Below are positions 4,600-55,691 of a stretch of 64,000 bases of DNA, piece after piece. The DNA is taken from the NCBI GenBank assembly GCA_963922205.1, contig CAWUHX010000157.1, forward strand, positions 315,001-379,000, in the 5' to 3' direction. Position 1 is the first letter of the stretch. Every line of letters starts with the position of its first letter. Below the pieces are notes generated by a model that did not search any database, was not told where the DNA came from, and was given only the letters and a program-made list of their open reading frames with translations. Both the position numbers and the translations under genes were made by a program. Origin of the DNA: Romanomermis culicivorax (taxonomy: Eukaryota; Nematoda; Enoplea; Mermithida; Mermithidae).

Positions 4600-7450
4600 G
4601 AATGGAAAGATACACCCGGTGGCTGAAATGAGCCATTGTGTCTATCGTTAAATGTGCTTCCTCATATTGTAACCACCCGTTCATTGGTTGAAAAATGGTC
4701 TAATGAGTAGTCCTGAAGTGTCTGATGTGTACATACAAGTCTGAGTAGCTGAAGTGACACAGATCAAACAGTGCTCGAAAAATAGGAAGCAATGTTGTGT
4801 ATTTACAGTGGCGGAAGTATCCCAGTATACGCACTGCTCAAAAAATGGTAGGTGAATATGGAAGAGTGGTAATCCTTAAATTCTTAGTGGCTGAAATGAC
4901 CCAGAATATTTAGTAGCTCAAAAAAATTACTTCGTGTCCGATCCGAGGTTTTAGCCTCGCTGTTAATCACGCAAAGTTTCCTAACAACTGGTAAAGCATG
5001 ATGTAATAGGGATCAAACAGCTGGAGCAAGAGTTGAAATCAAAGTAATCCAGTGAACCCTGGTTTAACACAGTGGCTGTAATGACCACGTATATCAAATC
5101 CTTGAAAAATTATCTAGTGAAGTGGATTAGGAAAATTTGTGTCCGAAGTGAATATTTTAAACTGGAAGTCTATAATTCATAGTGGCTGAAACGACTCATT
5201 TCGAAAAATAGTCACTCTTAGGCAGTAATTAATTAATACGAATTTATAATCATTATAAGTACCCATGCAGTGATAGAAAATTCTCTTCTCTATGCAGTGG
5301 ATAGTACTGCAGCAACTGAAGTGAGCATCAAAGTTTATAATGCATAGTGGCTGAAGTGACACGGGTCTCTTAATGCTGGAAAAAGAAGTGTTATCGGTGC
5401 AAGAAATGCTCAGATATGTTTTCACAGTGGCGGGAACGGCCCAGTATATGCACTGCTCGAAAAATTGTATGGTCAAGGCGCTGATTCTAGAGCCACAGTG
5501 CCTGAGGTTAATCTTGATGAGTGGTAATCCGTAAAATTTGTACGAAGTTTTAGTTGCAGGAATGACCCAGTATATCTAGTCTGAAGGCCAACAATTATTT
5601 TGCGCCAGATTGGAGATTTTTGCGTACCAGTGGCTCATGTGAACTTCGCTAAAAAAAAGGTAAATTCATCATGGTGATCAAATAGATGGAGCAATATTTG
5701 AGTGAAACGATCCAGTGAATCCCGATTTTACAGTGGCTGAAATGAGCTATGAAACAAATGATATAGTGCAGTGGATCTGGAGAAGCTATGTCTGAAGTGA
5801 ATGTTTCAAACTGCAAGTCTGTAATTCATAGTGGCTGAAATGGTCGATTATGTCTGTGGCTCGGAAAATGCTCAATCTGAAGCAGTTTAATGAGAATTCA
5901 CAGTGATTATGATCACCCAAGCAGTAATGGGAAAATGTTCATATCAGTGTAGTGCGTACATGAAAGTTTGTAATGCAATATGGCTGAAGTGACATAGATC
6001 ACTTAGCGCTGGAAAAGCAGTGTTATCAGTGCAAGAAATCTTGTGCGGCGGAAATGGCCCAGTATATGCACTGCACGAAAATTTGTATCGTCAAGGCGCT
6101 GATTCAACACCTAAAATTTATATGAAGATTTAGTTGCTGAAACGACCCAGTATATCTAGTCTTGAGCTCAAAAATTATAATAGGGCAGATTAGAGACTTT
6201 GAGTAGCAGTGACTGCGAACTTTGATCAAAACCAACCACTAAACCATGATTTAATGGTGGTCAACTAGCTATTGAAATAGTTGAAATGGAATGAACTAGT
6301 GAATCCTGGCATTACAGTGGCTGTAATGGCCAAGTATATCCAATGCTTTATAAATTTTCTAATCGAGTGAATTTTGAGAAGTTGTTTCAAACGAAAAATT
6401 CAAACAAGAAGTCTGTAATTCATAGTGGCTGAAATGACCCATTATATCTTTGGTTCGATAAAAAGTCGCTCTGAAGCAGTGTTCGAATTTACTACGATAA
6501 TAATCACATATACAGTGACGGGAAAATGCTTAATAGATTGTGAACAGTGAAGTAACATAGATTATCTAGGACTGGAAAAAATAGCCTTATCAATGCAAGA
6601 AATCTGGTGTGGTAACAGTGGCGGAAATGGTCCAGTATGCTTAGTGTTCGAAAAATTACGTCTCCAAGGTACTCATTCTAGTGTTGCACTGCCTGATGTG
6701 TATATAAACTGGATTGTAATCCTCAAATTTTATATGAAATTTTGGTTGATGAAATGACCCAGTATATCCAGTCTAGAGGTCAAAAATTATTTTGCGATAG
6801 ATTAGAGATTTTTGTCTGTCAGTAGCTCTTGTGAATTTTGCAAAAAAAGGTAAATGCATTATGGTGATCATATAGATGGAGTAATAGTTTGAATAAAATG
6901 ATCCAGTGAATCCTGGTTTTACAGTGGCTGAAATTGGCCAGTGTATTCCATGATCGAAAAATGATCTATTGCAGTGGATGTAGAGAGATTATGTCTGGAA
7001 TAAATATTAAAAACTGGATATCTGTAATTCGAAGTTGCTGAGAAATGACCCTTTATGTATGTGGTTCGAAAAGTGATCCCTGCAGTTCAATAATTTATAT
7101 GAATTGACACTGATTATAATGAACCTGATCGAAAAAAGTCGGTAATTCATAGTTGCTAAAGTGAGATAGAGCTAAAAAAATTGTGTAAATTTGAGTATTG
7201 AATCTGTAGTGGCAGTAATGACCTAATATATGCACTGCTGGATGGTCGAGAAACTGAGTCTAGTGCCTCAGTGTATGAAGTGACCATAAATGTATACGTA
7301 AACTTACAGTGGCTGAAATGACCCAGTAATCTAGTTTAGAGCACAAAAATATCAGACATCATATCCAATATTCGAAAAATTATCTTGCTAATGTTGTGGA
7401 TCTAAATAAATAATGTCTCAAATGAATATTTTACAGTGGCTGAATTGAAC
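4600..7450. repeat. higher-order satellite built on a GTGGCTGAAATGACCCAG motif
   Basis: The short motif CAGTGGCTGAAATGACCCAG-TATAT recurs dozens of times with divergence. Superimposed is a longer unit of about 580-670 bp. The marker (A)GTCTGTAATTCATAGTGGCTGAAA begins near 5,167, 5,815, 6,410 and 7,018. A second marker, GATCAAATAGATGGAGCAATA...CCAGTGAATCCTGG, begins near 4,990, 5,658, 6,235 and 6,846. A third, CAGTGGCGGAAATGGCCCAGTATATGCACTG, occurs near 4,807, 5,424, 6,050, 6,608 and 7,200. The order of markers is conserved, so whole multimers were duplicated in tandem. Not coding. Confidence 0.8.
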
Positions 7451-8129: not shown

Positions 8130-8443
8130 ATTTGTTCATTAGTTAGTTCAATAACTTATTATTTCATTAGTTCATGAGTTTCGATGTTGGAGAATCGTAA
8201 AAATAAATGCGAAAGCCTTTTAGAATCTAGCTAATTTGTTGCTTTCATGAAAGAATTCATTCATTCATTACTGCAAAAGCCCGTTTTTTCATTACTTAAT
8301 GAAGTTTTGAAGTTAGAAATATATGCTGAAGTAATTTTTTTTTTAAATCTTTCTGATGCCATAAATTAGTAGACTTTGGATATTTTCAGTAGTGTCACGT
8401 GTCACACGGCCATACATCACCCCTTCATAACTATCGCAACACT

Positions 8444-8514
8444 GGCTCGGTAGTTCAATCGGAAGAACGCTGCACTATAGTCACAAAGACCCAGGTTCGA
8501 ATCCCGGTCGAGCA
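8444..8514 (+). tRNA. tRNA-like sequence in LTR 1 (probably pseudo)
   Basis: Seventy-one bases fold partly as a tRNA. GGCTCGG pairs with TCGAGCA at six of seven acceptor positions. The D stem GTTC/GAAC is perfect, and the T stem CCAGG/CCCGG has one mismatch. The A box TAGTTCAATCG matches TRGYNNARNNG and the B box GTTCGAATC matches GWTCRANNC. The anticodon stem does not form, so no isotype is assigned. Best read as a pol III promoter-bearing tRNA relic inside an LTR. Confidence 0.55.
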
Positions 8515-8714
8515 TTATTTTTCGAACAGTGTTTGGTGATGGTTACGATGGCAACGCGGTTTACTCATTACGTGACATGGCGAGGCTTCGATGGTCCCAT
8601 ATTGGTGGGCCCCAGGAACCTGCATCTTCAACGGACGAGGTCGTCGTTCTTTCAAGGGGGGAATGTCACGTGTCACACGGCTGTACATCACCCCTTCCTA
8701 ACAATCCTAACACT

Positions 8715-8785
8715 GGCTCAGTAGTTCAATCCGAAGAACGCTGCACTATAGTCACAGAGACCCGGGTTTGAATCCCGGTCGAGCA
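8715..8785 (+). tRNA. tRNA-like sequence in LTR 2 (probably pseudo)
   Basis: Second copy, 271 bp downstream of the first. The D stem is perfect. The T stem CCGGG/CCCGG is fully paired in this copy only. The acceptor start is GGCTCAG, with one extra mismatch against TCGAGCA. A and B boxes are intact (B box GTTTGAATC). The anticodon stem is degenerate. Confidence 0.5.
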
Positions 8786-8985
8786 TTATTTTTTGAACAG
8801 TGTTTGGTGATGGTTACTATGGCAACGCGTTTACCCATTATGTGTCATGGCGAGGCTTGGATTGGCCCCACATTGGTGGGCCGCAGAACCTTCATCTTCA
8901 ACGGACGAGGTCGTCCTTCTTTCAAGGGGGGGAATGTCACGTGTCACACTGCCCTACATCACCCCTTCATAACTATCGCAACACT

Positions 8986-9056
8986 GGCTCGGTAGTTCAA
9001 TCGGAAGAACGCTGCACTATAGTCACAAAGACCCAGGTTCGAATCCCGGTCGAGCA
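8986..9056 (+). tRNA. tRNA-like sequence in LTR 3 (probably pseudo)
   Basis: Third copy, 271 bp on. Over the tRNA-like stretch it looks identical to copy 1, including GGCTCGG at the 5' side and the A and B boxes. The anticodon stem is again unpaired. Confidence 0.5.
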
Positions 9057-9257
9057 TTATTTTTCGAACAGTGTTTGGTGATGGTTACGATGGCAACGCG
9101 GTTTACTCATTACGTGACATGGCGAGGCTTCGATGGTCCCATATTGGTGGGCCCCAGGAACCTGCATCTTCAACGGACGAGGTCGTCGTTCTTTCAAGGG
9201 GGGGAATGTCACGTGTCACACGGCTGTACATCACCCCTTCCTAACAATCCTAACACT

Positions 9258-9328
9258 GGCTCAGTAGTTCAATCAGAAGAACGCTGCACTATAGTCACAA
9301 AGACCCAGGTTCGAATCCCAGTCGAGCA
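9258..9328 (+). tRNA. tRNA-like sequence in LTR 4 (probably pseudo)
   Basis: Fourth copy, 272 bp on, closest to copy 2 at its 5' side (GGCTCAG). The T stem is weakened (CCAGG/CCCAG, two mismatches). A and B boxes still match consensus. Confidence 0.5.
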
Positions 9329-9391
9329 TTATTTTTCGAACAGTGTTTGGCGATGGTTACGATGGCAACGCGTTTTACCGATTACGTGTCA

Positions 9392-9740
9392 GTAGAAAAT
9401 CGATTTTTCTTTGTTCAGTTTCGGGGGTACACTTGTACTCATTTTTTTCTATAGCCGGAAAGGCAGACTTCACAGGACTATAGGGTCATATAAGCGTCCA
9501 CCTTATATGAGAGGCGCTCTTTGGGTGCTTTTGCCGCCTGCTGGAGGCCATGTTCTACAGGCTGGCGTCTGCCCGACTGGACAGGACTTCTTCGGCTAGC
9601 TACCTCAAAATAGAATAGGCCCAGCTCCTTATTTGTCGCATCTAATCGCCATGATGCTAACTGGGCCCACTAGACCAAGGCAAGCAGCGCACCGAGCTTT
9701 CCTACACCCGAAGAATGAAAGGCAGTGTCTGCGGTCTATT
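9392..9740. other. GC-richer unassigned stretch
   Basis: Between the mini-LTR array and the foldback element. From about 9,450 it is less AT-rich than its surroundings. A short plus-strand frame near 9,610-9,690 reads LSHLIAMMLTGP, faintly like the RNase H region of some LINE elements, but too short to support a call. No complete gene. Confidence 0.25.
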
Positions 9741-10358
9741 CCCAAGTGAGCGATTCCCAATTGAGCCAATTCCCAAATGAGCGAATTCTCAAATGAGCGA
9801 ATTCTCATTTGGGCGATTCCAAACGAGCAACAGAGAATGCAATAACCTTTTCGTCACATTTTCCTTCTTTACCTTGTATTTTTCCTTTTATATATTTCTT
9901 TTTTATTTCGTTCTGTGTGTTGCAATTATGCTTGTTTTTGCATTTTAATCTTTTGTCCCTGCTGTCTTTCATTTTCTTTTTTCTTTGTCATCTACTGTTT
10001 TTTTGCTCTCGAAACATTACATCACAAGTTGCCATTTTTAATAAGCATTGTTTGCCATGTAATTGTTGAACAATTCGGATCTCTCTATTTCCTATTTAAT
10101 TTTATTCTTTGTGATTTTTTGTTCATCCCTATCAACTTTTCATCTTACTTTTTTGCTTTTACTTATCTTTTTCTATGCTTTCTTTTTTTGTTTTTTCACA
10201 CATTATTTTTTCTTTCTTCCTCTTTTTGAAGTTTGAAATTTGAAGAAAGTGTTATTACTTTCTTGATCGCCCAATTGGGAATTCACTCATTGGGGTATTC
10301 TCTCAATTTGGAATCGCTCACATGGGAATCGCTCAATTGGGAATCGCTCACATGAGAC
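9741..10358. mobile_element. foldback-type element with repeated GCGATTCCCAA arms
   Basis: The left arm (about 9,741-9,828) has six tandem copies of a ~14-bp motif of the type GCGATTCCCAATTGA. The right arm (about 10,265-10,358) has the same motif in reverse complement (TTGGGAATCGCTCA). The arms enclose a very T-rich, non-coding middle. Long inverted arms made of short tandem repeats are the layout of foldback elements. No target duplication is clear, so the ends are approximate. Confidence 0.65.
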
Positions 10359-10784
10359 TACCCTGAGTCGAACCTGGTTTTTGAGATTAATAGTCAGACG
10401 AGCCCCACAAAATAAAATTTTCCGCTGATCTATAACTTCTAGATTTCATATTATTCTACGAAAAATGATTGCTAGTTCAGCGTTTCCTTTTTTGGATACA
10501 TTCTCATTTCATTAGTTGTTCAAAATAATTCATTATTTCATTAGTTGGTAAATTTTGAGGTTAGAAAAATGTGCAAAAGACAGAGAGAAATGCGTAAGAT
10601 GTTTATAATCTTGCTGATTTGCTGCGTTCATAAGAAATTTGATTCATTCATTAACCTGGAAGCTCATTTTTTCATTACCCGAGACCTATCCATACTTTTT
10701 TCGAAAATCTGTTGCAAGTGATTGCACCAATCAAAATCAAAATCCCTCATTTTCGCTGTGCGCGTGCAAGAAAGATCTAGACCA

Positions 10785-11775: not shown

Positions 11776-12705
11776 TTCTTATGCCCAAATTACACAATAG
11801 ATTCTTATGTTCAAATTTATAGTTTTTCCATCAACTGCTGCATTTTTTTGGATTATTAACATACACAGTAACCAAGCCAGTATTTTAGAGGACGCGCTTA
11901 CTGTAGATTTGATCTTCAATTTTTTGCCTATCCGTAAATAATTTTAAGCCAAAATTATATTCTAATTGATAAAAGTTGTAGTTTTTCATCACCTGCTGAT
12001 CAATACAAAATTCTCAAAATGAAACTTACGTATTATATATTAATATGTTTCAAGCGTTTAACTGCAAAAGCTTAAATTTCGACAACGGCAAAATTTGTTC
12101 AATTTTCATCGAAAAAAGAATATTTAAAATACAGGTTCATGTATTTTTCTTATTTACTGTGGTTTATCACGTGCGCTATTATTTCAACTCTTTTCACTTC
12201 CAAGATGCCACACCACCATTTTTGCGTTCCCTGCAACATAAAGCAATAATTTTCCATGCTGTCAGATATTGATCTTTGGAATACGAGTATTGGTTCCTTA
12301 ATTTTTCCGGACTAGCCTATTTCATCAAGGAGACTTAAGCTCCAGCTGAGCTGCAGCTAAACTGCTGCGTAACTTTATATGTTCTACCATTGCCGTTGAG
12401 CTGCAGCTCAGCTGTAGCTTAACTCATGCACACAAAACATATCGAAAAAGTTAAGCTGCAGCTGAGCTGTAGCTTAACTCGCTGAGGTGCAGCTCAGCTG
12501 CAGCTTAACTTTCCCGATATGTTCTGTGTTTATGAGTTAAGCTACAGCTGAGCTACAGCTTTTGGCGAAAGGTTGTTTGCGATTGGTGTATAACATTATG
12601 ATTCTCCATTTCTTGGCCTTACAATCACATAAAAATTATACAACGCTTTTATTTTGCCCGTAGGCACACAATGAACGAATAATAATACAGTGGTTATGGT
12701 AATGC

Positions 12706-12739
12706 GACGTTTCGGTAGTCTACCTACTACCTTCCTCAG
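12706..12739 (-). ncRNA. hammerhead-ribozyme-like core of a Penelope-like element
   Basis: On the minus strand the order is CTGAGGA (matches CUGANGA), helix II GGTAGT/ACTACC (6 bp, 6-base loop), GAAA, then ACGTC, giving a GUC cleavage triplet. Helix III would be only the self-complementary ACGU with no loop, as in the minimal hammerheads described from Penelope-like elements, which work as dimers. Helix I can form only about two pairs next to the core (GC/GC), so activity of this copy is doubtful. It lies downstream of the GIY-YIG frame on the same strand, as expected for such an element. Confidence 0.5.
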
Positions 12740-12773
12740 GCGACAATAAACTCCTTTTTTTACAAAACTCGCT

Positions 12774-12842
12774 ACTTGAGGGAATTGAACCCTGGTCGTT
12801 TGATCGAGAGTCTAGAGCGCTACCACTGGGCCATGGGGGCCA
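12774..12842 (-). repeat. tRNA-derived SINE-like sequence
   Basis: Minus-strand A box TGGCCCAGTGG and B box GTTCAATTC both match pol III consensus at roughly tRNA spacing. The T stem is nearly complete (CAGGG/CCCTC). The acceptor and anticodon stems do not pair, so it is not a functional tRNA. An A-rich run (GTAAAAAAA) follows. It sits between the GIY-YIG relic and the hammerhead-like core. Confidence 0.45.
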
Positions 12843-13264: not shown

Positions 13265-14703
13265 TACTTACAGCTTAAGCTGCAGCACAGCTCGAGCTTA
13301 AGTTTCTTTGATGAAACTGGCCATTAAAATTATGATAATTTTACAAAAAATCCATTCTTCCTTCATGGATACAGTCGGTTGTCAAGTGCATTAATGTTTG
13401 CTCCCTCAAATTTTTTTCCACCTCCAAATACTCCAGCAGCTAAGAACCAGTCCCAATAATTTTTTCAGACTATCAAAAATGATGTTTGGAGAACAAACAA
13501 TCTAAACTACAGTAATAGTTTATAAAATTTTATTAAGTAGTACTTAATCAAAGTGCTTTAATGTCAACATCACATTTTCACTTTCAAACTTTTTCAATTG
13601 CAAGTAGTCCAGACAACCTGCCCCAATATATTTTTTTTGAGAAATATCAAAAATTTTGTTATAGAATAGAAACAGTCTAAAGTACAATTATTTTGCAAAA
13701 CACCAAAAATTCATGTTTTTTTCGTGGATACTCTAGTTTATCAAAAGCATTGATGTTCATCACTTGCAAGTTTTTTCACTTTCACGTATTTCAGGAATGC
13801 CCCAATAGTCTTTTCAAACTACGAAAAATAATGTTTGGAAATTGAAACAATCTAAACTTTTGTCGTAGATAAAACTATAATTATTTAGCAAAAAAGACAA
13901 AAAGGTAATGTATCTTTCATTACTGTAGTTTATCAAGCACTTAAATGTTTGCATGCCATGTTTCTTACTCTAATTTTTTGATTTGCGAGTGCTCCAGCAG
14001 CAGAAAATCTGTCCCAAGGATTTTCTTCATGCTGTCAAAAATTATGTTTGGTGCAGTAGAAACAATCTAAACAATAGTAATCTTGCAATAAGCACAAAAA
14101 CAGTCATGCTTCTTTCATCGATACCGTAGTCTATGAAGAGTTTGCATCACTTTTTCACTCAAATTTTTTTACCTGCAAGTACTCCAGCAACAGAAAAACC
14201 GTACCAATAATTTTTTCAAGTAATCAGAAATGATGTTTGAAGTAGAGAAACAATCTAAACTACAGCAATTTTGCAATAGAGACAAGAAAATTCATGCTTC
14301 TTCCATGGATACTGTAGTTTATCAAGAGTTTGCATCACTTTTTCATTAAATTTTTTACTTGATAGTGCTCCGGCAACCTGCAACCTGTCCTAGTAATTTT
14401 CCCAAACTACAAAAATTATTTTTGGAGTAGAAACAATCTAAACTACAGTAATTCTGCAATAAAGACAAAAAATCACTGCTTCTTTCATTGATCCTGTACT
14501 TGATCATGTGCTTTATTATTTGCATCACGCTTTCAATTTCAAATTTTTTCATTTTCAAGTAATCGTGTGATGGAAAATCTGTCCCAATAATTTCCTCAAA
14601 CTGTCAAAAATGGTGGATGCATAGAGCAAAAATAACATGAAGTAAAGTAACTTTGCGAAAAGCGCAAAAAATCACGTTTCTTTCATGGTTACTGTAGTTT
14701 ATC

Positions 14704-14817
14704 AAGTTCATTAAGCCCAATTCAAAAGTGCAGTTGCCGACCGTCGCCAACTGACGCCGACTGTCGCCGATTGTTGGCGACAAAAATCCTAGGATTATTT
14801 CACTTCTGAATTGTGCT
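14704..14817. mobile_element. 114-bp inverted-repeat element in the satellite
   Basis: Ends GCCCAATTCAAAAGTG and CACTTCTGAATTGTGC are inverted with few mismatches. The interior repeats GTCGCC(A/G)ACTG. It interrupts a unit of the ~185-bp satellite, which dates it after the array. Non-coding. Confidence 0.5.
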
Positions 14818-14946
14818 TTCTGCAAATTGTGCCCAACAAAAATTCTATGATTTTCCACTTCCTAATAGGGTTCAATGTTTCTATCCCAATTTTTTCACTT
14901 GCAAGTGCTCCAAAAACTGACAACCTGTCCCAATAAAAATTATATG

Positions 14947-15570
14947 TGTTGTATTGGGTGCTCGTATGCCCTCGGCTACCTAGCTGCGGTTCTTGGGAGA
15001 TCCACTCTGGTACGGCCCCTGACGCTAACCCGGTACTAACTATGCTCCTACGGTACCTAGCTGAGACTGAATGTACGAAGATATTTATTGTGAACAAAAC
15101 GAGAAGTGCAATGAAATACAAAAGTGAGGGTCAATAGAATACAATTGTGAAAATGCCAAACACGAAAACACCGCCGCCTAACTACTCCCTGACTCACAGA
15201 TCCCTTTCTTCACCCCTGCACACAGAGCCACAGGGGCTTTAGGATATCTCAACATGCGGCCTAAGCTGGAACTCCTCAAAGAAAGATGAGACAGATCAGC
15301 CTGTCTACAACAACAACTCACTAGACTTCTTGATCAAAAGGGGTCGTCATAAATCCTCAGGCTCGGTTCGGCTCTCAAGCGTAACACCAACATGATGTAA
15401 AAACAAAAATACAAAATAATCGTAACTGGCGAGGACGCCCACGCTCCTTTCCTAGCCACCGCGTATGTCAAAACGTCCGACCCACAAAACAGGACGATAA
15501 GAGCGCCAAAAAATACGTTTCAAATAATAATTTTGCAACAATGAACAACTGCACGGTGGCGTGCCTAACA
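14947..15570. mobile_element. possible solo LTR
   Basis: A ~620-bp GC-richer block that starts TGTTGTAT and ends CCTAACA (TGTT...AACA ends). It interrupts the satellite. On the minus strand it has AATAAA (in ACAATAAATATC) about 150-190 bases before one end, as in an LTR. I could not find matching 4-6 bp direct repeats at its edges, and there is no second copy in the window, so this is tentative. Confidence 0.4.
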
Positions 15571-15625
15571 TCAACTTGCATGTTGTATGCAAAACTTTCG
15601 CGCTATCCATTTATTTGTTTTGGGG

Positions 15626-15771
15626 CCAAAAATATGTGACACAAACCTTTATCGGTTTGTTTACTTAATAATAATTGAAAACCCTTTAACAACAAAGAAA
15701 CTCTAGAGAATGAAAATGTAATAATTAGAGGGCCAAAAGTCAGAGGAATTGACCCTCTGACATATTTTTGG
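15626..15771. mobile_element. 146-bp MITE with CCAAAAATATGT termini
   Basis: Exact 12-bp inverted ends: CCAAAAATATGT at 15,626-15,637 and ACATATTTTTGG at 15,760-15,771. Just inside the right end is a hairpin, GTCAGAGG/CCTCTGAC. Non-coding. Satellite sequence resumes immediately after it. Confidence 0.55.
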
Positions 15772-15930
15772 AGTGGAAAAACTACAGTTATTTTGCAATA
15801 AACACAAAAAATTACTGTTTTTTTCATTGATACTGTACTTCATCAAGTGCATTAATGTTTGCATCACACTTTCAATTTCAAATTTTTTCACTTGCAAGTA
15901 CTCCAGCAATAGACAACCTGTCTCAATAAT

Positions 15931-17439
15931 GCTCCTAATCTCATATAATCTCCATTAGTACACAAATTCCCTGCTACTCCTTCTTCTTCTTCTTCTTTCC
16001 ACAAACTAATAAAGTCTGCTCTTTCTACGTGTATACACGTCTCCTTCAGTTCTTATCATTGCATTATTTTTCTTTCGGTCAATTTCCATCCAAAGGAGAG
16101 CTTCATTTCTTAAAAGCTAGTAATCCGCGCGTCCTCTTTCTCTCCTTTCGCTACAAAACTAAATTAACCACCACGTTGACGTAACATACACATTCTAGCT
16201 TCTCCTCTTTTGACCAATAGAGTGACCACACACACACACACACAAGAAAATCCCTAGCCTCAAATTTGCGGCGAAAAGTTCTAAAATACGGCTCTAGGCG
16301 AAATTGTTTACGACAGCTAGCTAATAATAGTGGTCACTCTATTATTAACGTAATGGTCAAGCTTTTCTTTAGTTGTGGTCGAGCTTCTGTTCGGTAAGGG
16401 TCGAGCTAGGCTAGCTCCTCATTTGCATAAAAGATGAAGTATCTTTGGCATTTTTTATTCATATATACTCGTATATATACACTTTTTATTTGACCTCGTT
16501 CTTTGTTTATTTTTGTTTTGGTCACTTTCTAGAGGCGACGAAATAAATTTCATGCAAATGAGGCGCCAACTGTCCAAAAAGCTATAAAATTCTTTTCCGA
16601 ATAGTTTGCTTTGATGCTCAGGTTTGTGTGGTTTTTTTCATGCACCAGATTTTTGTGTATACCTAATTATTTTTCTTCTTTTTCGCCACTCCAAATATCC
16701 AATATACAATATATATATTTTCGCCACTTGTTTAATAATCGATGCTTTGAATATGAGCTTCCTGCGGCTGCTTCTCCTATTCGCCAGATAAGCCCAATAT
16801 CCAATATGCAAATTTAATTGTCGTATGCAAATGAGGCTTAATTTCGCCGAGATTTGTACATACAATATACATGCAATATCATGCGCGATATTTGGGGTAT
16901 TTTTCGAGAGACGTTTATTCCGTGTTGTTAATAATAAATCCGAGCGCTTCAATGTTGTTACCCCGAAGATGTTATTGTCGTTTTCGGAAAATGACCAGCA
17001 AGTACAATTTCGAATTGTATACTGTAGATCGTTGTTTAAATTTCACATCAAATTTTATCTGCCAGAAATTGGCATTTTATCCGGGACTTCTCTACTTTGA
17101 TTTTTTGACGGTGATTTGATAGAAAATTTGCATAATTGCCTGCAGGTTTCCAGTCACGTGATCTGCCCTTCTAATGTAGTAGTTTCGTTTCAGCTAATGA
17201 AATTCGCACGTCTGTTACCTCTTTCTTTAAAATTAAAAAAAAATTTATTCTGTATAGATCACGTGATTTTTTAAACTTTTATTTATTCATAATTACTTTA
17301 GTGATCAATTTTACAGATTTGATTTAGTTGTATATTCCTTCTCCTCACATCGAATCACTTTTTTTCGTTTTGATGAGATTTTTCTCCTGATTCCATTGAA
17401 TTTGAAATTCGATTCAAGTTTAGGATGATTTTAAGAAAT
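15931..17439. other. intergenic, no gene; microsatellites
   Basis: Contains a CTT-type microsatellite near 15,980 and a (CA)n run near 16,230. Several overlapping open frames at 16,600-17,120 on both strands have no recognisable domains and are not supported as genes. Confidence 0.45.
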
Positions 17440-18640
17440 ATTTTGAATGAAATCGTGATCCCTTGCTGACGTCAATCTCCAAAAAAATCCATATAGAATA
17501 ATTTAACATTTTATCGATAGCCACCAATAAAAATTTGAATCTGTTGATCACGTGATTTCAATGTATAAACCACGATTTCCTTAGATGATATCAAATCAAG
17601 TATGACTCAGCAAGATGGTCTTACTGTACTTGAAAAGTAGTTATTTGTCTTAAGATGTGCAAAAATCTACCTTTAGGATGATCACCAAAAATACCTTGAA
17701 TAATTCTAGCTGTTGCTGACGTCAAGCTCTGAGAAAAGATCCATATGGATAGCCACTGATCAAAATTTGAGCAGGGATTTAGTCTGTTGATCACGTGATT
17801 TCAATATATAAATCGTGATTTCCTTGAATGATATGAAATCAAGCTTGACGTCAGCAAGATGGTCTTACTATACTTGAGGAGTTGTTGTTTGTCTCAAGAT
17901 GTTCAAATATCTACGTTTAGGATGATTATCAAAAATGTTTTCAATGAAATTTCTAGATCTTGCTGACCTCAAGCTCTGAAAAGAAGTCGATATAATATAA
18001 TTTAACATTTGATCGATAGCAACTGATCAAAATTTCAGCAGTGATTTCATCTCTCTCTATTATGTGATTTCAACGTAGAAAACATGATATCATCAAATGA
18101 TGTAAAATCGAATTTGACGTCAGCAAGATGATCTTACTGTAGTTGAAAAGTAGTTATTTAGCATGATTATTAAAAATAAACCAAATGAAATTGCCGGATC
18201 TTGCTGACGTCAAGTTCTGAGAAAATATGGATATAGAATGATCGAACATTTGATCGATAGTCACTGATCGAAATTTCAGCAACTCGAGTTTTATCTTTTT
18301 TCATCATTTAAATGAATAAACTATGATTTCCTCATATGATATGAAATCAAGTTGTACGTCAGCAAGATAGTCGTACTGTAGTTGAAAAGTAGTTATTTGT
18401 CTCGAGATGTACAAGGATTTGCGTTTAAGGTGATTATCAAAAGTACTTCAGATATTGCTGACGACATGACCTGAAAAAACTTGATGTAAATCAATCAATC
18501 GATCAACAATTCCATTTCCACTGTTAATCACGTGGTTTCAATGACTTCCATTTTTTTACAAACGATGCTAAATCACGTTTGACGTCAGCAATATAGTCTT
18601 ACTTTAGCTGAAAAATAATAATTTGTATCCTGCCATTGAA
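17440..18640. repeat. ~250-bp satellite with TGACGTCA and TCACGTGA palindromes
   Basis: Five units carry TTGCTGACGTCAA(G/T)CTCTGA at about 17,464, 17,713, 17,962, 18,201 and 18,457 (238-257 bp apart). Later in each unit come GATCGATAGCCACTGATCAAAATTT, GATCACGTGATTTCAAT, ATGATATGAAATCAAG and GACGTCAGCAAGAT, then GTCTTACTGTAGTTGAAAAGTAGTTATTTGTCTC. GCTGACGTCA and TGACGTCAGC face each other within a unit, so each unit is partly self-complementary. No coding potential. Confidence 0.75.
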
Positions 18641-19699: not shown

Positions 19700-21470
19700 G
19701 TAGAATTTTATTGTCATCACATCGGGCAATTTTTTCTTAATGAGGTATAGAACCTGGAACTTCATGAATATATGTATACTGCTTATCACATGCTTGCTGA
19801 CGTCACCAAGAATGTTTGCTGAGAAAAGAAACGTCAAAGATGGTGAATGTATCATCGCCTGTGGATCAAACGAGTTGTCTTGCTGTAGTTGTGAAATCTG
19901 GAACTGCAAGATTATATAGATTGCTTATATAACATGCTTGCTGACGTCACTTTTTTCGTCCGAAAATTTTTTGGAAGAAAGGCGTAGTTGACAACTCCAC
20001 TTGTATATCAATAAATTTTGCCTTACTGTGGGTGCGAATAATGGAACTTCGTGATTATGTAGACTACTTATATCACAGGCTTGCTGACGTAAATTTTTCT
20101 GTACAAACAATTTCACACTGACAGAGACAGAGTTAAAGAAGGTCAAGATACCTCATTCGTATATCAACTAATTTTGTCTTACTGTAGTTGTGAATTCTGA
20201 AACTTCATGATAATGTAGACTTTCTGAATCACATTCTTTCTGACGTCACTTTATATGTACATTCACGGAAAAAGGCAGAGTTGTGCACAGTAAGGTACCT
20301 CCAATTGCATATCAAGTAATTTTATCTTACTGTAGTTGTCAATTCTAGAACTTCCTGGTAATGTAGAGTGCTTATACAACCTGTTTGCTGACGTCACCTA
20401 TTGTTTACAAGAACGTTTTCAGTGAGAGCTGCAATTGAATATGGGAGATTGAAGAATTTATTTGATCAATTTGATTGGTCAAAAAAAGTTTATCGATTTT
20501 TCGTGTTAACTATTCTCTAAGCCTAAGCCTAAGCCTAAGCCTAAGCCTAAGCCTAAGCCTAAGCTTAAGCCTATGCCTAAGGCTAAGCCTAAGCCTAACC
20601 CTAAGCCTAAGCCTAAGCCTAAGCCTAAGCCTGAGCCTGAGCCTGAGCCTGAGCCTAAGCCTAAGCCTAACCCTAAGCCTAAGCCTAAGCCTAAGCCTGA
20701 GCCTGAGCCTGAGCCTAAGCCTAAGCCTAAGCCTAAGCCTTAAGCCTAAGCCTAAGCCTAAGCCTAAGCCTAAGCCTAAGCCTAAGCCTAAGCCTAAGCC
20801 TAAGCCAAAGCCTAAGCCTAAGCCTAAGCCTAAGCCTAAGCCTAAGCCTAAGCCTAAGCCTAAGCCTAAGCTTAAGCCTAAGCTTGAGCCTAAGCCTAAG
20901 CCTAAGCCTAAGCCTAAGCTTAAGCCTAAGCTTGAGCCTAAGCCTGACGCTAAGCGTAAATCTAAGCTTAAGTTTATGTCTGAGGCTAAGCCTGAGGGTT
21001 ACCCTAAGCCTAGCTTAAGTCTTAGGCTAAGCCTAAACATGAGGCTTAAGTTCAAACCTAATACCGGAAAAGCTGCTCGAACGAAACTCAAAAAGTCGAT
21101 AAATTTTTTTCGATCCGCCAAATTGATGACAGTTCTTAGCTGCGCAATACTTTCTGTGAAAGTATCACTATGACTACGTGAATATCGAACGATGTTATCT
21201 TACTGTAGTTGTTGATGTTTACGATTATGTAAAATGCTTACATCGTTGCTGACCACTAAAATTCTGGATCGGAATGTTTACAAATAGAAGTTGTAATTGA
21301 TAAAAGCATCATTATCCGTAGATCAAATGATGTTGTCTTACTGTGGTTATAAAATCTAGAAATTTGCAGCTGTGTATGGACTGTTTATCATGCATGCTGA
21401 CGCCACTTATTCTGTAACCATCTCATGAACGTGACTTCAAAACGCAAAAACGAGTAAGCTTCATACTGTA
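19700..21470. repeat. ~145-bp satellite (GCTTGCTGACGTCAC), split by a telomeric array
   Basis: GCTTGCTGACGTCAC or a variant lies at about 19,794, 19,936, 20,081, 20,236 and 20,386, and again in degraded form near 21,232 and 21,397. Each unit also has TCTTACTGTAGTTGTGAATTCT and GAACTTC(A/C)TGATAATGTAGA. The TTAGGC-type array at 20,517-21,060 lies between units on either side. Confidence 0.7.
20517..21060 (-). repeat. interstitial telomeric array 1 (GCCTAA on +, TTAGGC on -)
   Basis: About 540 bp of GCCTAA repeats, near-perfect from 20,521 to about 20,940. It includes GAGCCT variants near 20,632 and 20,697 and a one-base slip near 20,741. The right end decays through GCTTAAG, GCGTAAATC and GAGGGTTACC. 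The orientation is that of a left-hand chromosome end. The Lys-Pro and Leu-Ser open frames through it are products of the hexamer and are not genes. Confidence 0.95.
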
Positions 21471-24571: not shown

Positions 24572-24775
24572 GGCTTAGGCTTAGGCTTAGGCTTAGGCTT
24601 AGGCTTAGGCTTAGGCTTAGGCTTAGGCTTAGGCTTAGGCTTAGGCTTAGGCTTAGGCTTAGGCTTAGGCTTAGGCTTAGGCTCAGGCTTAGGCTTAGGC
24701 TTAGGCTTAGGCTTAGGCTTAGGCTTAGGCTTAGGCTTAGGCTTAGGCTTAGGCTTAGGCTTAGGCTTAGGCTTT
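24572..24775 (+). repeat. interstitial telomeric array 2 (TTAGGC on +)
   Basis: About 34 tandem GGCTTA hexamers, almost perfect, with a single GGCTCA variant near 24,680. The orientation is that of a right-hand chromosome end, opposite to array 1. High perfection suggests recent origin or homogenisation. Lys-Pro and Gly-Leu frames through it are artefacts of the repeat. Confidence 0.95.
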
Positions 24776-24871: not shown

Positions 24872-24946
24872 TGAGTGTTTGGCTCAGTGGTAACGCACTG
24901 GAGCGTTTGAATCAAAAGGTTGCAGGTTCGAAACCTACCTGATGAC
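24872..24946 (+). repeat. tRNA-like SINE head
   Basis: A box TGGCTCAGTGG (about 24,880) and B box GTTCGAAAC (about 24,925) match pol III consensus. The T stem GCAGG/CCTAC has one mismatch. An anticodon-loop-like GTTTGAATC resembles tRNA-Gln, but acceptor pairing is absent. An A-rich stretch follows (GACAAAAAAATCACC). Best described as a tRNA-derived SINE or pseudo-tRNA. Confidence 0.45.
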
Positions 24947-26350
24947 AAAAAAATCACCGAAAAACTAAACAAATGAAAAAAAATGAAAAAATTAGTGTTG
25001 GGGAACTACTTCAAAAGGTCCCTAAATTATTGTATATTTTCCATTCTTTTATATAGTATTGGATTAGTGGATTTTTTATCCGGTTTATCAATTTGTTTAT
25101 TCATTTTTAATTTTATTCATTTTTTCATATATTTTGCTTGTTTTATTCTAATTTTCTCTTACTTTCTATTTCATTTTTATTCATTTATCTTTTTATTTAA
25201 TCTTTCTAAATTCCTGTTGTATAAACACTGATTTGTGGACAAAATTATGCGATACTTTCCAAAATTACTGTACATTTATTCGAAATACTTTTGTAGCCTT
25301 CGATTATTGGATTTCATTTTATTTATTAATTTTTCATTTAAATTTTTGAATTATTTTGCTTTTTTTATACTATTTTTGTGTTACTTTTTCATTTCGTTTT
25401 TTTATCTATATTTTTATTATTTTTCCAACTTCCTGTCGTATAAATTCAAACTTATGGACAAAATTATACGATAATTTTTTTCCTGAATTCTTACAGTAAC
25501 TACAATCTAAAATTAATTTATATTGTTTCCATTTTTTGGTTCTTTTATGTAATACTCGATCTGATATGGATTTTTTATTTTGTTTTATTAATTTGTTCAT
25601 TCATTTTTAATTTAATTTATTTTTCTATTACCTTGCTTGTTTTATTCTATTTTTCTGTTACTCTTTCATTTCATTTTTTATTTTTTTTTATTTTTTTAAC
25701 TTTCGTACCCTTTTAACTTCTTGTCGCATAAATACTAATTTATGGACAAAAGTATACGATTTTTGTACTCGTGAATTCTGAAAGTAACTGTAATCCAAAA
25801 TTACTGTATGTTTTGTCCGTTTTTCGATTATTTTATTTAGTATTCGATTGGTGGATTTTTTATTTTGTTTATACATTTTTTCAATTATTTGCTTGTTTTA
25901 TTCTTATTTTGCTGTCACTTTTTATTTCTCTTTATTTATTTATTTACGTTTTCACTTTTAATTTTTTCAGCTTCTTATTGTACAACTACTAATTTGTGTA
26001 CAAAATTATCCTTTTCTTTATGAATTATTACAGTAACTCCAATCCAAAATTACTGTATATTTTTTATATTTTTCGGTTTCTAATTCGTGGTATTTGATGA
26101 TTATATATTTTATTGACTTTCTCATTTACTTTTTATTTTATTCTTTTTTTCAATTATGTTGCTTGTTTTAGTCTATTTTTTGTCACTTTTTTATTTTTTT
26201 CCTTTTTTAATTTTTTCAACTTCCTGTCGTATAATTACTAATTTGTGAACAAAATTATACTTTTCCGCATGAATTTTTACAGTAACTTGTATATCCCAAA
26301 TTACTGTATATCTTTCCATTCTTTCATGTATAGTACTCGATTAGTGGATT

Positions 26351-27004
26351 TTCGCGCCCTTCATTTATTTTTATGAAATAACCTCAATTGGCAATATTGT
26401 ACGTTGGCAGTCTACACTCTTAATCCTACTGTACTTTGTGTCACCTATACGAAATGTGTACCTTTCACTTCGTTTTTTTATACAACCTACCTTTTTATCT
26501 TTCTCGGACATCATTTCACTCTTTTCTTTTTGGATGACACTCGAAAAGTGACACTCGATATTTGACATTTTGCTCGTTGATATTAGACATATATATACAG
26601 TAAATACAGAAAAATGAAGAAAGACAGTCTCCCACTTTTGTATGCATTTACAGAACAGGAATGGAGAATGATCGATTTTTTGCTGTTGTCGCTACTCGCA
26701 TTTACGACCATTCCTCTTCGTCCCGAAAGACTGATGATTTTGTTTTTGTTTACTCTCTCTCTCTTTCTCTGAAAATGAAACTTTGGACAGTAATGGAGAC
26801 GAAAAGAAGAACAAATGGTAATTTTTGTATTCGCAGGTTCATTGGTGAGCGAAGATTACTGCTGCTTGCTGAATTTTATGTCGTGAAGTAATTTTTGTGG
26901 TGTTTTTGACGTTTGTAATTTTTGAATGGCAAATATTTAGTTGTCTATGTTTTTTGTCTTATATTGTGTATTTTCAATTTTATTTTCCTTAGGTTTAGAT
27001 CCAG
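26351..27004. other. intergenic, no gene
   Basis: Short frames on both strands (26,371-26,568 minus; 26,661-26,891 plus) show no recognised domain. The sequence near 26,890-26,990 is partly repeated at 27,885-27,975 across telomeric array 3. Confidence 0.4.
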
Positions 27005-27860
27005 ATTTGCTGAGATTTAGATCTAGGTTTAGGCTTAGCCTTAGGCTTAGGCTTAGGCTTAGGCTTAGGCTTAGGCTTAGGCTTAGGCTTAGGCTTAGGC
27101 TTAGGCTTAGGCTTAGGCTTAGGCTTAGGCTTAGGCTTAGGCTTAGGCTTAGGCTTAGGCTTAGGCTTAGGCTTAGGCTTAGGCTTAGGCTTAGGCTTAG
27201 GCTTAGGCTTAGGCTTAGGCTTAGGCTTAAGCTTAGCTTTAGGCTTGCTTTGCCTTAGGCTTAGGCTTAGGCTTAGGCTTAGGCTTAGGCTTAGGCTAAG
27301 GCTTAGGCTTGGGCTTAGGCTTAGGCTTAGGCTTAGGCTTAGGCTTAGGCTTAGGCTTAGGCTTAGGCTTAGGCTTAGGCTTAGGCTTAGGCTTAGGCTT
27401 AGGCTTAGGCTTAGGCTTAGGCTTAGGCTTAGGCTTAGGCTTAGGCTTAGGCTTAGGCTTAGGCTTAGGCTTAGGCTTAGGCTTAGGCTTAGGCTTAGGC
27501 TTAGGCTTAGGCTTAGGCTTAGGCTTAGGCTTAGGCTTGGGCTTAGGCTTAGGCTTAGGCTTAAGCTTAGCTTTAGGCTTGCTTTGCCTTAGGCTTAGGC
27601 TTAGGCTTAGGCTTAGGCTTAGGCTTAGGCTTAGGCTTAGGCTTAGGCTTAGGCTTAGGCTTAGGCTTAGGCTTAGGCTCAGGCTTAGGCTTAGGCTTAG
27701 GCTTAATCTTAGGCTTAGGCTTATGCTTAGGCTTATGCTTAGGCTTGCTTTGCCTTAGGCTTAGGCTTAGGCTTAAGCTTAGCTTTAGGCTTGCTTTGGC
27801 TTAGGCTTAGGCTTCGGCTCAGGCTCAGGCTTAGGCTCAAGCTTAGACTTATGCTTAGTC
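27005..27860 (+). repeat. interstitial telomeric array 3 (TTAGGC on +)
   Basis: About 850 bp, mostly perfect TTAGGC. A variant block, TTAAGCTTAGCTTTAGGC followed by TTGCTTTGCC, occurs at 27,227 and 27,561 (334 bp apart). The same block with a slightly different end recurs at 27,773. This shows segmental duplication inside the array. Both ends decay (TTTAGATCT on the left; GGCTCAGGCTCA, then TTATGCTTAGTC on the right). Arg-Leu and Gly-Leu frames through it are artefacts. Confidence 0.95.
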
Positions 27861-28919
27861 TGTCATGAACAAAGTATTCTTGGACTTTTGATTTTTGTAA
27901 TTTTTGGATGACGTTTGTATGGTTTTGTCTCTCTTTTTCATGTTTTTTTGCCTTATTGTGTATTCTTTTGTCTCTAGTTTTCATACTTTTTACCTTATCT
28001 TTTTCTTCTTAGTTTTTCATTCATAGTTTTTTTAGTTAATGATTCAGTTTTCTCGATCGGCCTTTTCCGATTTCTAATGCTGCAAAAGAAGTATATTTTC
28101 TTTTGTGTTTATGTTTGTTGCTTTGATTTCTCTCTACGATTTTATTCTTTTATATTTTTATATTCCTTTTCGATAATGGAAGATTAGTCTAGTTCTCCCG
28201 AGTTCAACAAATCTGGGTTTGCACTTCGACGACTGCATTTTTTTCTGTGACGTAAATTCGTAGTTTTATTTGACTTGTATATTAAACATTTTTGTAGTTT
28301 TTTCAATGTTTCTTTTTTGTTCAGTTTTCTTTTCTATTTTCTCTTCTATTTCCTACGTTATTTTTTCATCAATTTTTTGTTTTTTACTGTGTTCGTTTGT
28401 TTATAGTAATTTTAATTTTTTTCTTTTATCTTAAATACGTTTATTTTCGTCTGGTGGGATTTCTTTTTTCTTTTTTTCACTGTTTTGTTTGTTTTACTCT
28501 ATTTCTCTGTTACCTCTCATTTAGTTTTAATTATTTTCTTAACTTTTCTGATTCGTATTGTTTTGTCCCTTTTTATTATACGCTTCTGTGATTTTCGTTT
28601 GTTTTTTCTACCTATGTATTTCTCTTTCTCGCTTATTTCTCGTTTATTTGAGTTTTTCTGTTGTATTTCATTGATCTTTTGTCTCCCGCTCTGGTTTTAT
28701 GTTTTTTCGCACATTTTCTCATTTTCTGGGCCCGCATTTTTATATTACAATTGATTAAGAAATATTACTCTGTTTTATTTTCTATTTTTCATTTTTTTCA
28801 ATCTTTTTTTGAATTCGTATTATCGGATTTTGTTCTTTATATTCTGTGTTATTTACGTTTTCGTTTCCCGTCTTTACTTTTTAATTTTTTCTTATTTTTT
28901 GGTTCTTTCCTTTGGTTTC
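27861..28919. other. intergenic, T-rich, no gene
   Basis: Strongly T-rich plus strand. Hydrophobic Phe/Leu-rich frames are a product of base composition. No RNA or coding feature supported. Confidence 0.4.
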
Positions 28920-30640
28920 TTTACTGCGATTTTGTTTATTGTACTTGCTTTCTTTCGGTCTTTTTCTGGGATTTTGTTAAATGTTTATTTTGTTTTTTTT
29001 TGCGATTTTGTTTATTGTGCTTTTTTCTTTCGATTTATTTTCTGCGATTTTGTTTATTGTGCTTTTTTCTTTTGTTCTTTTTTCTGGGATTTATTTATTG
29101 TGCTTTTTTCTTTTGTTTTTCTGAGATTTTAGTTGCTGTGCTTTTTTTCTTTGGTTTATTTTCTGCAATTTTGTTAATTGTGCTTTTTTCTTTTGGTTTT
29201 TTTCTGACATTTTGTTTATTGTGCTTGTTTTCTGAAATTTTGTTTATTGCACTTTTTTCTTTTGCTTTTTTTGAGGTTTAGTTTATTGTGCTTTTTTCTG
29301 CAATTTTTTTAATTGTGCTTTTTTCTTTTGGTTTTTTTCTGACATTTTGTTTATTGTGCTTGTTTTCTGAAATTTTGTTTATTGCACTTTTTTCTTTTGC
29401 TTTTTTTTGAGGTTTAGTTTATTGTGCTTTTTTCTGCAATTTTTTTAATTGTGCTTTTTCTTTCGGTTTTTTTTCTGAGATTTTGTTTAGTGTGCTTGTT
29501 TTCATTTGGTTTTTTTCTGAGATTTTAGTTACTGTGCTTTTTTTCTTTGGTTTATTTTCTGCAATTTTGTTAATTGTGCTTTTTTCTTTTGGTTTTTTTC
29601 TGACATTTTGTTTATTGTGCTTGTTTTCTGAAATTTTGTTTATTGCACTTTTTTCTTTTGCTTTTTTTTGAGGTTTAGTTTATTGTGCTTTTTTCTGCAA
29701 TTTTTTTAATTGTGCTTTTTCTTTCGGTTTTTTTTTCTGAGATTTTGTTTAGTGTGCTTGTTTTCATTTGGTTTTTTTCTGAGATTTTAGTTACTGTGCT
29801 TTTTTTCTTTGGTTTATTTTCTGCAATTTTGTTAATTGTGCTTTTTTCTTTTGGTTTTTTTTCTGACATTTTGTTTATTGTGCTTTTTTTCTGAAATTTT
29901 GTTTACTACACTTTTTCCTTTTGCTTTTTTCTAATGTTTTGTTTCTTGTGCTTTTTTCTGCAATTTTGTTAATTGTGCTTTTTCTTTCGGTTTTTTCTGA
30001 GATTTTGTTTATTGTGCTTGTTTTCATTTGGTTTTTTTCTGAGATTTTAGTTACTGTGCTTTTTTTCTTTAGTTTATTTTCTGCAATTTTGTTAATTGTG
30101 CTTTTTTCTTTTGGTTTTTTTCTGACATTTTGTTTATTGTGCTTGTTTTCTGAAATTTTGTTTATTGCACTTTTTTCTTTTGCTTTTTTTTGAGGTTTAG
30201 TTTATTGTGCTTTTTTCTGCAATTTTTTTAATTGTGCTTTTTCTTTCGGTTTTTTTTTCTGAGATTTTGTTTAGTGTGCTTGTTTTCTTTTGTTTTTTTC
30301 TGAGACTTTCTTTCGTGTGCGTTTTTCTTTTGGGTTTTCTGCGATTTTGTTTACAGTGCCTCTATCTTTTTTATTTTTTCTGCGATTTTGTTATTGCGCT
30401 TTTTTTCTCTGGATTTCATTTCTGCGATTTTGTTAATTGTGTTTTTTCTGAGATTTTGTTTATTATGCTTTTTTTCTTTCGATTTTTCTGCGATTTTATT
30501 GTGCCTCTTTTTTTTGCTTTCTCTGCAATTTGGTTGATTGTACTGCCTTTGTTTTGTTTTTTGTACGATTTTGTTTGTTGTGATTTTTTCTTTCCATTTT
30601 CTACATTTTTATGCATAATATTGCTTTGTTTCGTCTTCAT
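28920..30640. repeat. T-rich 42-bp minisatellite with ~260-bp higher-order period
   Basis: The basic unit is about 42 bp, of the form TTTTTTCTGNNATTTTGTTTATTGTGC followed by a T/C-rich filler. Six or so variants recur in fixed order with a period near 260 bp: GAGATTTTAGTTACTGTGC is at about 29,519, 29,781 and 30,041, and GACATTTTGTTTATTGTGCTTG at about 29,342, 29,603 and 30,124. Because 42 is a multiple of three, long frames persist on both strands: Phe/Leu/Ile-rich on plus, and a 14-residue KSTINKISEKNxxx repeat on minus. A repeat-protein gene is not excluded, but no start, splice structure or full frame supports one. Confidence 0.7.
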
Positions 30641-53754: not shown

Positions 53755-54783
53755 AGGAAAAAGGTGGCTATATATATAATGATTTGGAGGCGAAAAATAT
53801 GTGTACGCTTGATTTTAATATGTACGTTGATGTTTTTGTTGACGTCAGCAAGCGGAGTAGGAAGGTACTTGGAATATTCGACTTTTTGATTGAAAATTTA
53901 CTCGAATTTCGGAAATATTTTTTGATTCAGCACTCCGAATTCCGGAAAAATAAAAATTCGACTTAGAACAAGTGGCGACCCCTGAAATGAGGTGGATTTG
54001 GCGCCCTGCTTTTGAAACATTTTCATATTCGAAGATTACTGAACTAATTTGACGTCAGCAAGTATCTTATAGACTTTTACGTTTCAGTATTCAAATTTTT
54101 TTCCATTTTACCGTTTTATATTTCCTATGTGCCAGAAAAATTTCAAATTGCATTTTTTTCGTGGAAAATTCAAAACTTTTTTTGTTCTCGTTATTGTCGC
54201 CAAAATTTAATCTTACTTCTTTACACAATATTTGTCGTTTGTTGTACGTTGTAGAAATTTTATACTTTACACAATTTTTGTTGTTTTCATTTCAGTGTAA
54301 AATCGCTTATATGCGAATGTAAATATTCCTATCGTGTGCAAAAATATGGACGATATTTTTTTTAATAGTTTCGTGATCATCTATTCGGAGATTCGTTATA
54401 TATCGTATTATATTGCTGTTTCTTGTATCATGGAACTCGCAAAAATTTGTACATAAGTAAAGTAGGTTGACGTGATTCTTGTCGTAAGATGCCTAAGCTT
54501 TAGCATTCCATCGTCCACATTCAACACGACTCTGCGAGGCGTCTTGCCAATACAGCGAAACTCAAAACTGCGATTTTCATTACAGCGAAGTCGCAATACA
54601 GCGATTTCCATTACAGTGTGGTCTCGAAACAGCGATTCTAAAAAAGGAGTCTCAAAACATCGAATCTCAATACAGCGAATAGTATAAAGTTCTATGTATT
54701 ACAGTAAATGCACACATCATTCTTATAATAAATATGCAGTGCAGATTGGGAATACTAAAACCGTTTTTGTTAATGGTAGCATT
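53755..54783. other. 3' flank of the nephrin-like gene; ~15-bp minisatellite
   Basis: 3' UTR, then AT-rich intergenic DNA. At about 54,545-54,690 the motif AATACAGCGA(A/T)TTC recurs roughly every 15 bp (AAACTCAAAACTGCG, CATTACAGCGAAGTCG, CAATACAGCGAATAG). No gene. Confidence 0.45.
53949..53954 (+). promoter_or_regulatory. candidate polyadenylation signal of the nephrin-like gene
   Basis: AATAAA about 195 bases after the stop codon. It is the first perfect match downstream. Use is inferred only. Confidence 0.45.
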
Positions 54784-55660
54784 TGTAACGACCAGATTTG
54801 TGAAGCACTTTACTTTATCAAATTACAGATGTTACGGCGGACAAAAAGGGCGCGGGGCGATACGGGTAATAATAATCGACGGCTGCTTTGAGACGTCGAC
54901 ACGACAAACAGGGAACGCGGCGAGTTACAACAACAGCTTAACTGCTTCCGAATAAAAAGGATACTCGCTCGCAATACAAAACGCTTGCAAATGAAATGGG
55001 TGCGGGTCGAGAAACGGAGAATTACAACAATAATGACAAAATCACGCTTTGCTTCTCTTTAAATACGATGTTTTTGGCCACTCCCTGGGCGTTGCGGGAG
55101 GTCGTGATTTTGTCCATCTTCTTCGGCCAATCGTCGCTTCCTGCTACCCTTTTTATGCTTTCTTAGTTACGCCTTTCTAATGCTTTCCTGGTACTGTATG
55201 CTTTTCGTGCTTTGCTTGCTTTCTACGGTGGGCTTGGCCACACCTCTGTGCTTCTGTGCATGCTTCCTGTATCGGTTTCTCTGTATACACATGTTTTGTG
55301 TTGCTGCTGCTACCGTTACACTTGAGACTACTGTCTGGCGGGGCTTCTATGTATTTTACTGTGTGCAGGTGTTGTTTACAATTTTTACGGGGGATTACGG
55401 TAGCTGTGGAATGTGTAGTTTAGTGTAGGTTCTAGGGGACCAGCTGCCATTTGTGGAAATTATTTGGGGCATCTTAATTGGGCTACCGGGGTGTGAAGGG
55501 ATCAAAATAAAGTACTTCACGTAATCTTATAGGAATGTTTGGGTGTGAATCCCAGACACCCTTGAGACGATAAAATGTGAAAATGAAACAATATCTAATA
55601 AATGTCTATCACATACAGTATGCTACATATTTACAGTACTGCTTTAGCAGGTATGTTACA
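54784..55660 (-). mobile_element. 3' LTR of a Ty3/gypsy retrotransposon
   Basis: On the plus strand it begins TGTAAC and ends GTTACA, a perfect 6-bp inverted terminal repeat. It lies immediately beyond a polypurine tract and the end of pol, so it is the 3' LTR of a minus-strand element. About 877 bp. The 5' LTR must be beyond 64,000, so LTR identity and target duplication (left flank GCATT) cannot be checked here. Confidence 0.75.
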
Positions 55661-55675: not shown

Positions 55676-55691
55676 AGTTGAACGTCCTAGT

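Follow-up and report, generated by a model that had tools for sequence, protein, structure and literature searches.

A block of DNA in which four units of 184-185 bp alternate with three segments of 86-87 bp occupies positions 8393-9391 of the 64-kb stretch analysed (the window, hereafter), and the question raised by this locus is what kind of repeat it is. The initial annotation, made from the sequence alone, saw in it a miniature LTR element with a tRNA-like pol III promoter inside every LTR, in other words a tandemly amplified counterpart of Cassandra with tRNA instead of 5S rRNA sequence. The LTR anatomy, the 4-bp duplication, the tRNA-like LTRs and the tandem layout support this proposal, and the array is very probably a tandem form of a Helenus-type TRIM, a non-autonomous LTR retrotransposon whose LTRs carry a pol III promoter derived from a tRNA. 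As the tRNA counterpart of Cassandra has already been published as Helenus (PMC10886601), the annotation was right on the kind of element and the kind is not new; the element is a further member of the published Helenus kind.

Structure, borders and history of the array

The annotated coordinates and unit lengths proved exact, with four LTRs and three internal segments in regular alternation (Table 1). All four LTRs have the common start that had been recognised, TGTCACGT, and LTR1 and LTR3 are the two units that end with its inverse, ACGTGACA. LTR2 ends with ATGTGTCA and LTR4 with ACGTGTCA, perfect 8-bp inverse ends being confined to LTR1 and LTR3. Each of the three internal segments begins, directly after an LTR, with the expected TGG in the sequence TGGCGAGGCTT and closes with a purine run of 10, 11 and 11 bases, directly before LTR2, LTR3 and LTR4, respectively; the purine run that precedes the outer left border of the array is only 2 bases long. 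The TGG start and the purine run stand where an LTR retrotransposon has its primer-binding site and polypurine tract, and TGGCGAGGCTTCGATGG is the candidate primer-site stretch at the internal-segment start.

Table 1. Positions in the window of the array units, of the tRNA-like sequences within the LTRs and of the Gypsy-type element
Feature	Position	Strand	Details
Left target-site duplication copy	8389-8392	.	GTAG
LTR1	8393-8577	+	185 bp; TGTCACGT...ACGTGACA
tRNA-like sequence in LTR1	8444-8515	+	RF00005 33.3 bits; A box 8451, B box 8494
Internal segment 1	8578-8663	+	86 bp; primer-binding-like start TGGCGAGGC; terminal purine run 10
LTR2	8664-8847	+	184 bp
tRNA-like sequence in LTR2	8715-8786	+	RF00005 31.0 bits; one mismatch per box
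Internal segment 2	8848-8934	+	87 bp
LTR3	8935-9119	+	185 bp
tRNA-like sequence in LTR3	8986-9057	+	RF00005 33.3 bits; boxes without mismatch
Internal segment 3	9120-9206	+	87 bp
LTR4	9207-9391	+	185 bp; end ACGTGTCA
Decayed tRNA-like sequence in LTR4	9258-9329	+	RF00005 19.4 bits, below gathering score
Right target-site duplication copy	9392-9395	.	GTAG
Gypsy-type LTR retrotransposon	55660-62799	-	

The GTAG noticed on both outer sides is present once per side, around the whole array. When pairs of points 999 bp apart were drawn at random, 1,546 of 200,000 (0.8%) had a flanking repeat of 4 bp, and among nine arrays compared, hand-picked from 49 partly overlapping tandem-repeat rows of the window, such a repeat was present at this array alone, the other eight having 0-2 bp. 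The array begins and ends exactly with an LTR, and the sequence beyond these borders does not resemble the internal segments, with identity at 5-6 of 20 positions on the left and 2-3 of 20 on the right. These borders bear on the possibility that the locus is a plain satellite, or a SINE-derived tandem repeat with tRNA pseudogenes, and that it resembles an LTR element only by chance. The array is indeed tandem and is the sole copy within the 64-kb window, a two-unit pattern is usual in satellites, and satellites derived from SINEs are described for reptiles (PMC10702118). However, a satellite would not be expected to end precisely where LTRs end, with GTAG on both sides, or to have a primer-site-like TGG and a purine run exactly at its junctions, and we consider this origin improbable.

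Further inverse motifs are nested around the tRNA-like sequence. Of the two pairs annotated, AACACTG/CAGTGTT is present in all four LTRs and CATCACC/GGTGATG in three, LTR4 having GGCGATG in place of the second motif. The nested inverse blocks of LTR1, the one LTR assessed in this way, are rarer than chance: of 5,000 shuffles of the flanks, 2 gave blocks as good. This value, together with the 8-bp inverse ends and nested motifs of LTR1 and LTR3, would suit a MITE-like DNA transposon of 185 bp whose ends are inverted and which was tandemly amplified along with 86 bp of flanking DNA. Such a transposon is nevertheless highly improbable: perfect inverse ends are missing from LTR2 and LTR4, the inner units have no flanking duplication, since the internal segments start with TGGC and end with GGAA, and the purine run and TGG are left unexplained. 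We also considered and rejected an RNA fold conserved over the entire LTR: the folding energy z values of LTR1 to LTR4 (-1.83, 0.06, -2.25 and -0.17) are near 0 in LTR2 and LTR4 and reveal no consistent peculiarity. A coding role is not supported, the one long frame tested (140 aa) having no Pfam match.

The differences between units record something of how the array, read as a Helenus-type element, was built. Eight of the 21 variable LTR columns set LTR1 and LTR3 apart from the other two LTRs, and no column favours a different pairing. Internal segments 1 and 3 differ solely in the length of a G run, and segment 2 has 7 differences from segment 1 over 85 aligned positions and 6 from segment 3 over 86. 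From the pairing of LTR columns and these internal-segment differences it follows that a tandem of the 271-bp unit probably came first and that a two-unit block of ~543 bp was duplicated afterwards. LTR2 and LTR4 differ at 10 sites and LTR1 and LTR3 at 2, a disparity poorly predicted by one duplication with an even clock, and further exchange between array units is possible. The presence of a single target-site duplication around the whole array fits in-place amplification by unequal exchange.

The tRNA-like sequence and predicted transcription

A tRNA-like sequence is present in every LTR, as annotated, with a length of 72 nt by the Rfam match rather than 71. Comparison with Rfam placed the sequences of LTR1, LTR2 and LTR3 above the RF00005 gathering score of 29 (E values of 0.0039, 0.016 and 0.0039, respectively, in the 64-kb search) and that of LTR4 below it, with an E value of 0.43 and seen only in a search separate from the 64-kb one. 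ARAGORN reported 0 tRNAs. The perfect D stem (4 of 4 pairs in each LTR) and the ruined anticodon stem (2, 3, 2 and 2 of 5 pairs in LTR1 to LTR4) were both recovered; of the remaining arms, the acceptor keeps 6, 5, 6 and 5 of 7 pairs and the T arm 4, 5, 4 and 3 of 5, in the same order. The 16 of 21 pairs formed by the LTR1 72-mer were reached by 1 of 20,000 mononucleotide shuffles. A working cloverleaf was nonetheless rejected for the 72-mers: folded alone they have no preference for it, and the tRNA-like part therefore has the appearance of a promoter relic, not of a tRNA.

The A and B boxes were annotated as consensus in each LTR. This holds without mismatch for LTR1 and LTR3, in which the distance between the boxes is 43 bp, whereas in LTR2 both boxes depart from the consensus by one base and in LTR4 the A box does so. 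The A box starts with TAGTT in all four LTRs and ends with CGG in LTR1 and LTR3, CCG in LTR2 and CAG in LTR4; the B box is GGTTC in three LTRs and GGTTT in LTR2. The motif TRGCY is matched by a TGGCT 8 bp upstream of the A box, and a T run begins at LTR position 126 in all four LTRs (T6 in LTR2, T5 in the others). In 20 shuffles of the 64-kb window, a perfect A box paired with a B box having at most one mismatch was encountered once. On the basis of these sequence elements, the LTRs are predicted to have pol III promoter activity. An RFX X-box was also sought and was discarded, as only LTR2 has a match, one of 3 places in the window.

The main rival to this prediction retains the TRIM and has it transcribed by pol II, with the tRNA-like sequence as a silent, captured relic, for example of a former SINE insertion, that has no promoter function. 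Decay of the tRNA-like sequence of LTR4 and of the anticodon arms is in keeping with such a relic. The tRNA-like part is also not significantly more conserved than the other LTR columns: 6 of its 72 columns are variable versus 16 of 113 in the rest of the LTR (Fisher p 0.26), one of these 16 being an artefact of LTR4 having been taken one base short, and the array thus does not show conservation for promoter use. In addition, CACGTG, presumably an E-box, is positioned near the start of all four LTRs, with 17 other CACGTG sites in the window. Normally spaced boxes and the following T run have, however, persisted in LTR1 and LTR3, and six poly(A)/TATA-type hexamers that were looked for are absent from the four LTRs, which slightly weakens the case for pol II. 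Conservation of the boxes across Helenus families, as published in PMC10886601, also argues against a silent relic, and overall we judge pol II transcription of this kind to be unlikely.

For a Helenus-type element transcribed by pol III, the following life cycle can be proposed. Transcription would start near the 5′ end of the tRNA-like sequence, at about LTR position 52, would sometimes pass the T run of the first LTR and would then stop at the T run of a downstream LTR (positions 126-130). With this start and this stop, the tRNA-like stretch would be at both ends of the RNA and would act as the terminal R repeat for strand transfer, so that the LTR would be laid out as U3 (~1-51), R (~52-130) and U5 (~131-185). 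We lean slightly in favour of this R-repeat step. Reverse transcriptase and integrase would be supplied in trans, probably by a Gypsy element, and a host tRNA would prime at TGGCGAGG. After insertion, unequal exchange would build the tandem, and the later duplication of a two-unit block would make LTR1 resemble LTR3 and LTR2 resemble LTR4. Self-priming was rejected: within one unit, exact complementarity to the first 21 bases of the internal segment extends over at most 5 nt, so that neither the element itself nor the 3′ end of the tRNA-like sequence in its LTR is a fitting primer. The account of Helenus in PMC10886601 likewise has no such self-primer complementarity.

Copies, candidate partner element and surrounding sequence

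Searches of the 64-kb window with blastn found no second copy of the LTR or internal segment and no solo LTRs or dispersed copies. Exact-pattern scans of viral contigs and prokaryote genome contigs gave 0 matches, as did a distant blastn search against phages and plasmids; these collections are not meant for animal genomes, and the zeros are therefore uninformative on copy number.

The Gypsy-type element of the window has a reverse transcriptase, RNase H and integrase frame at 55692-58721 and a protease frame at 61135-62799, both on the minus strand. Its 3′ LTR seems to start at 55660, with TGTAACAT after GGAAGGAGGGAAA; no LTR pair was found in 53000-64000 and no 5′ LTR in the window. A role for this particular element as the partner is unsupported, as its 3′ LTR starts with TGTAACAT and has no similarity to the array by blastn. 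Relatives of the Gypsy Pol were also sought in viral contigs, where 8 stretches fit the pattern and 0 were confirmed.

The window has other tRNA-like and repeated sequences. A tRNA-like head at 12640-12840 on the minus strand (RF00005 18.7 bits, below threshold) is followed by a GCCTGAGGAAGG...CCGAAACGTCG stretch that resembles what we take to be a SINE body. A tRNA-like A/B-box pair at 24880-24938 on the plus strand (RF00005 19.9 bits, also below threshold) adjoins a TTAGGC array and is possibly a SINE. A 23-nt inverse match at 10360-10382, considered as a further tRNA relic, was dropped, having no Rfam tRNA match. Just downstream of the array, inverted arms of tandem 15-16-bp repeats (ATTCCCAATTGAGCGA-like) at 9738-9828 and 10267-10350 are 84% complementary over 63 nt and lie 466 nt apart, and are possibly a fold-back element. 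A T-rich array at 28906-30563 has nested periods of 27, 42, 261 and 396 bp, and diverged direct repeats with ~65-80% identity, often in tandem, are located at 4850-7120, 13343-15941, 17418-18624 and 25037-26352. Two immunoglobulin-domain frames at 39150-41985 on the plus strand are probably exons of a cell-adhesion type gene; a third frame grouped with them (35233-35784) matches Pfam only weakly and PDB not at all.

Telomeres of TTAGGC and splice acceptors of TTTTCAG are nematode traits. Three long interstitial arrays of the TTAGGC type, or its complement, are present at 20517-21036, 24572-24774 and 27024-27858, and TTTTCAG is found 26 and 23 times on the two strands versus 8.7 expected from base composition, an expectation that ignores T-rich stretches. 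The arrays and the TTTTCAG excess make it likely that the host is a nematode. CpG is not depleted in the window (1.02). A fuller reading, which we offer tentatively as a serious possibility, is that the array is the first nematode Helenus-type element, of independent origin, that its tRNA-like stretch forms the R repeat of a genomic RNA made by pol III, and that it persists as tandem arrays.

Comparison with Helenus, Cassandra and other small LTR elements

The name Helenus was introduced by Kojima in 2024, and TRIMp3 is the group in which the same paper places it together with Cassandra and Ajax (PMC10886601). As described there, Helenus LTRs contain a tRNA-like sequence that includes boxes A and B, and the elements, 311-1263 bp long, have a PBS and a PPT; their tRNAs are mostly predicted to be non-functional, one family, LTR-11_DR, has tandem arrays, and those of animals have 4-bp duplications and primer sites resembling those of Gypsy elements. 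The array has in common with this description the TRIM structure, the tRNA-like LTR with boxes, the PBS-like and PPT positions, the 4-bp duplication and the tandem form. It is likewise miniature in its LTRs and internal part, and the LTR-internal-LTR unit of ~456 bp falls inside the Helenus range. In most Helenus elements the boxes are given as TRGCY and YGG (A) and GGTTC (B), whereas the A box of the array starts with TAGTT, the array being compared here with the published description of Helenus. The nested inverse motifs are a feature of the array, and the word 'inverted' is used 0 times in the main text of PMC10886601. According to the same source, it has yet to be validated that Helenus itself uses pol III; for Cassandra, the corresponding pol III start and stop are given, and the two ends of the RNA share a repeat of 18 bp.

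Nematoda are absent from Table 1 of PMC10886601, the main text of which does not contain 'nematod', and none of the best literature matches listed has a nematode TRIM with a tRNA in its title; in PMC8685519, as far as its text on Meloidogyne goes, TRIM is just one annotated transposon class. Counts of tRNAs in such genomes may include LTR-borne pseudo-tRNAs, as shown for rust fungi (PMC10886601). With a nematode as host, TRIMs that have captured a pol III promoter would extend to a phylum beyond their published range, one that includes tractable laboratory species, and the pol III origin of Helenus genomic RNA and the passage of the first-LTR terminator would become testable. Should the reading as a nematode Helenus be true, pol III-driven LTR retrotransposition reaches a further animal phylum.

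Retrozymes are also small non-coding LTR elements, with LTRs unrelated to the partner element, and a hammerhead ribozyme is their defining feature; the array differs in this respect, as Rfam gave no hammerhead match in the window or LTRs. Retrozymes are named in the Discussion of PMC10886601. The ant PbTRIM (PMC3532108) is a miniature LTR element with 4-bp duplications like those of the array, and the bivalve biv-TRIM (PMC6934838) is a miniature LTR element that, like the array, has tandem forms, but in the descriptions of these elements that we draw on from the two papers a tRNA-like LTR promoter is reported for neither. Cassandra is a plant element with 5S rRNA sequence, whereas the array is tRNA-like, with no 5S rRNA match in the window or LTRs by Rfam. 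The array, with its predicted signals, nevertheless resembles Cassandra in being a TRIM whose LTRs contain both a pol III promoter and a terminator, and Cassandra is described as forming short tandem arrays in many plants, commonly with about three LTRs and internal domains between them (PMC7215508).
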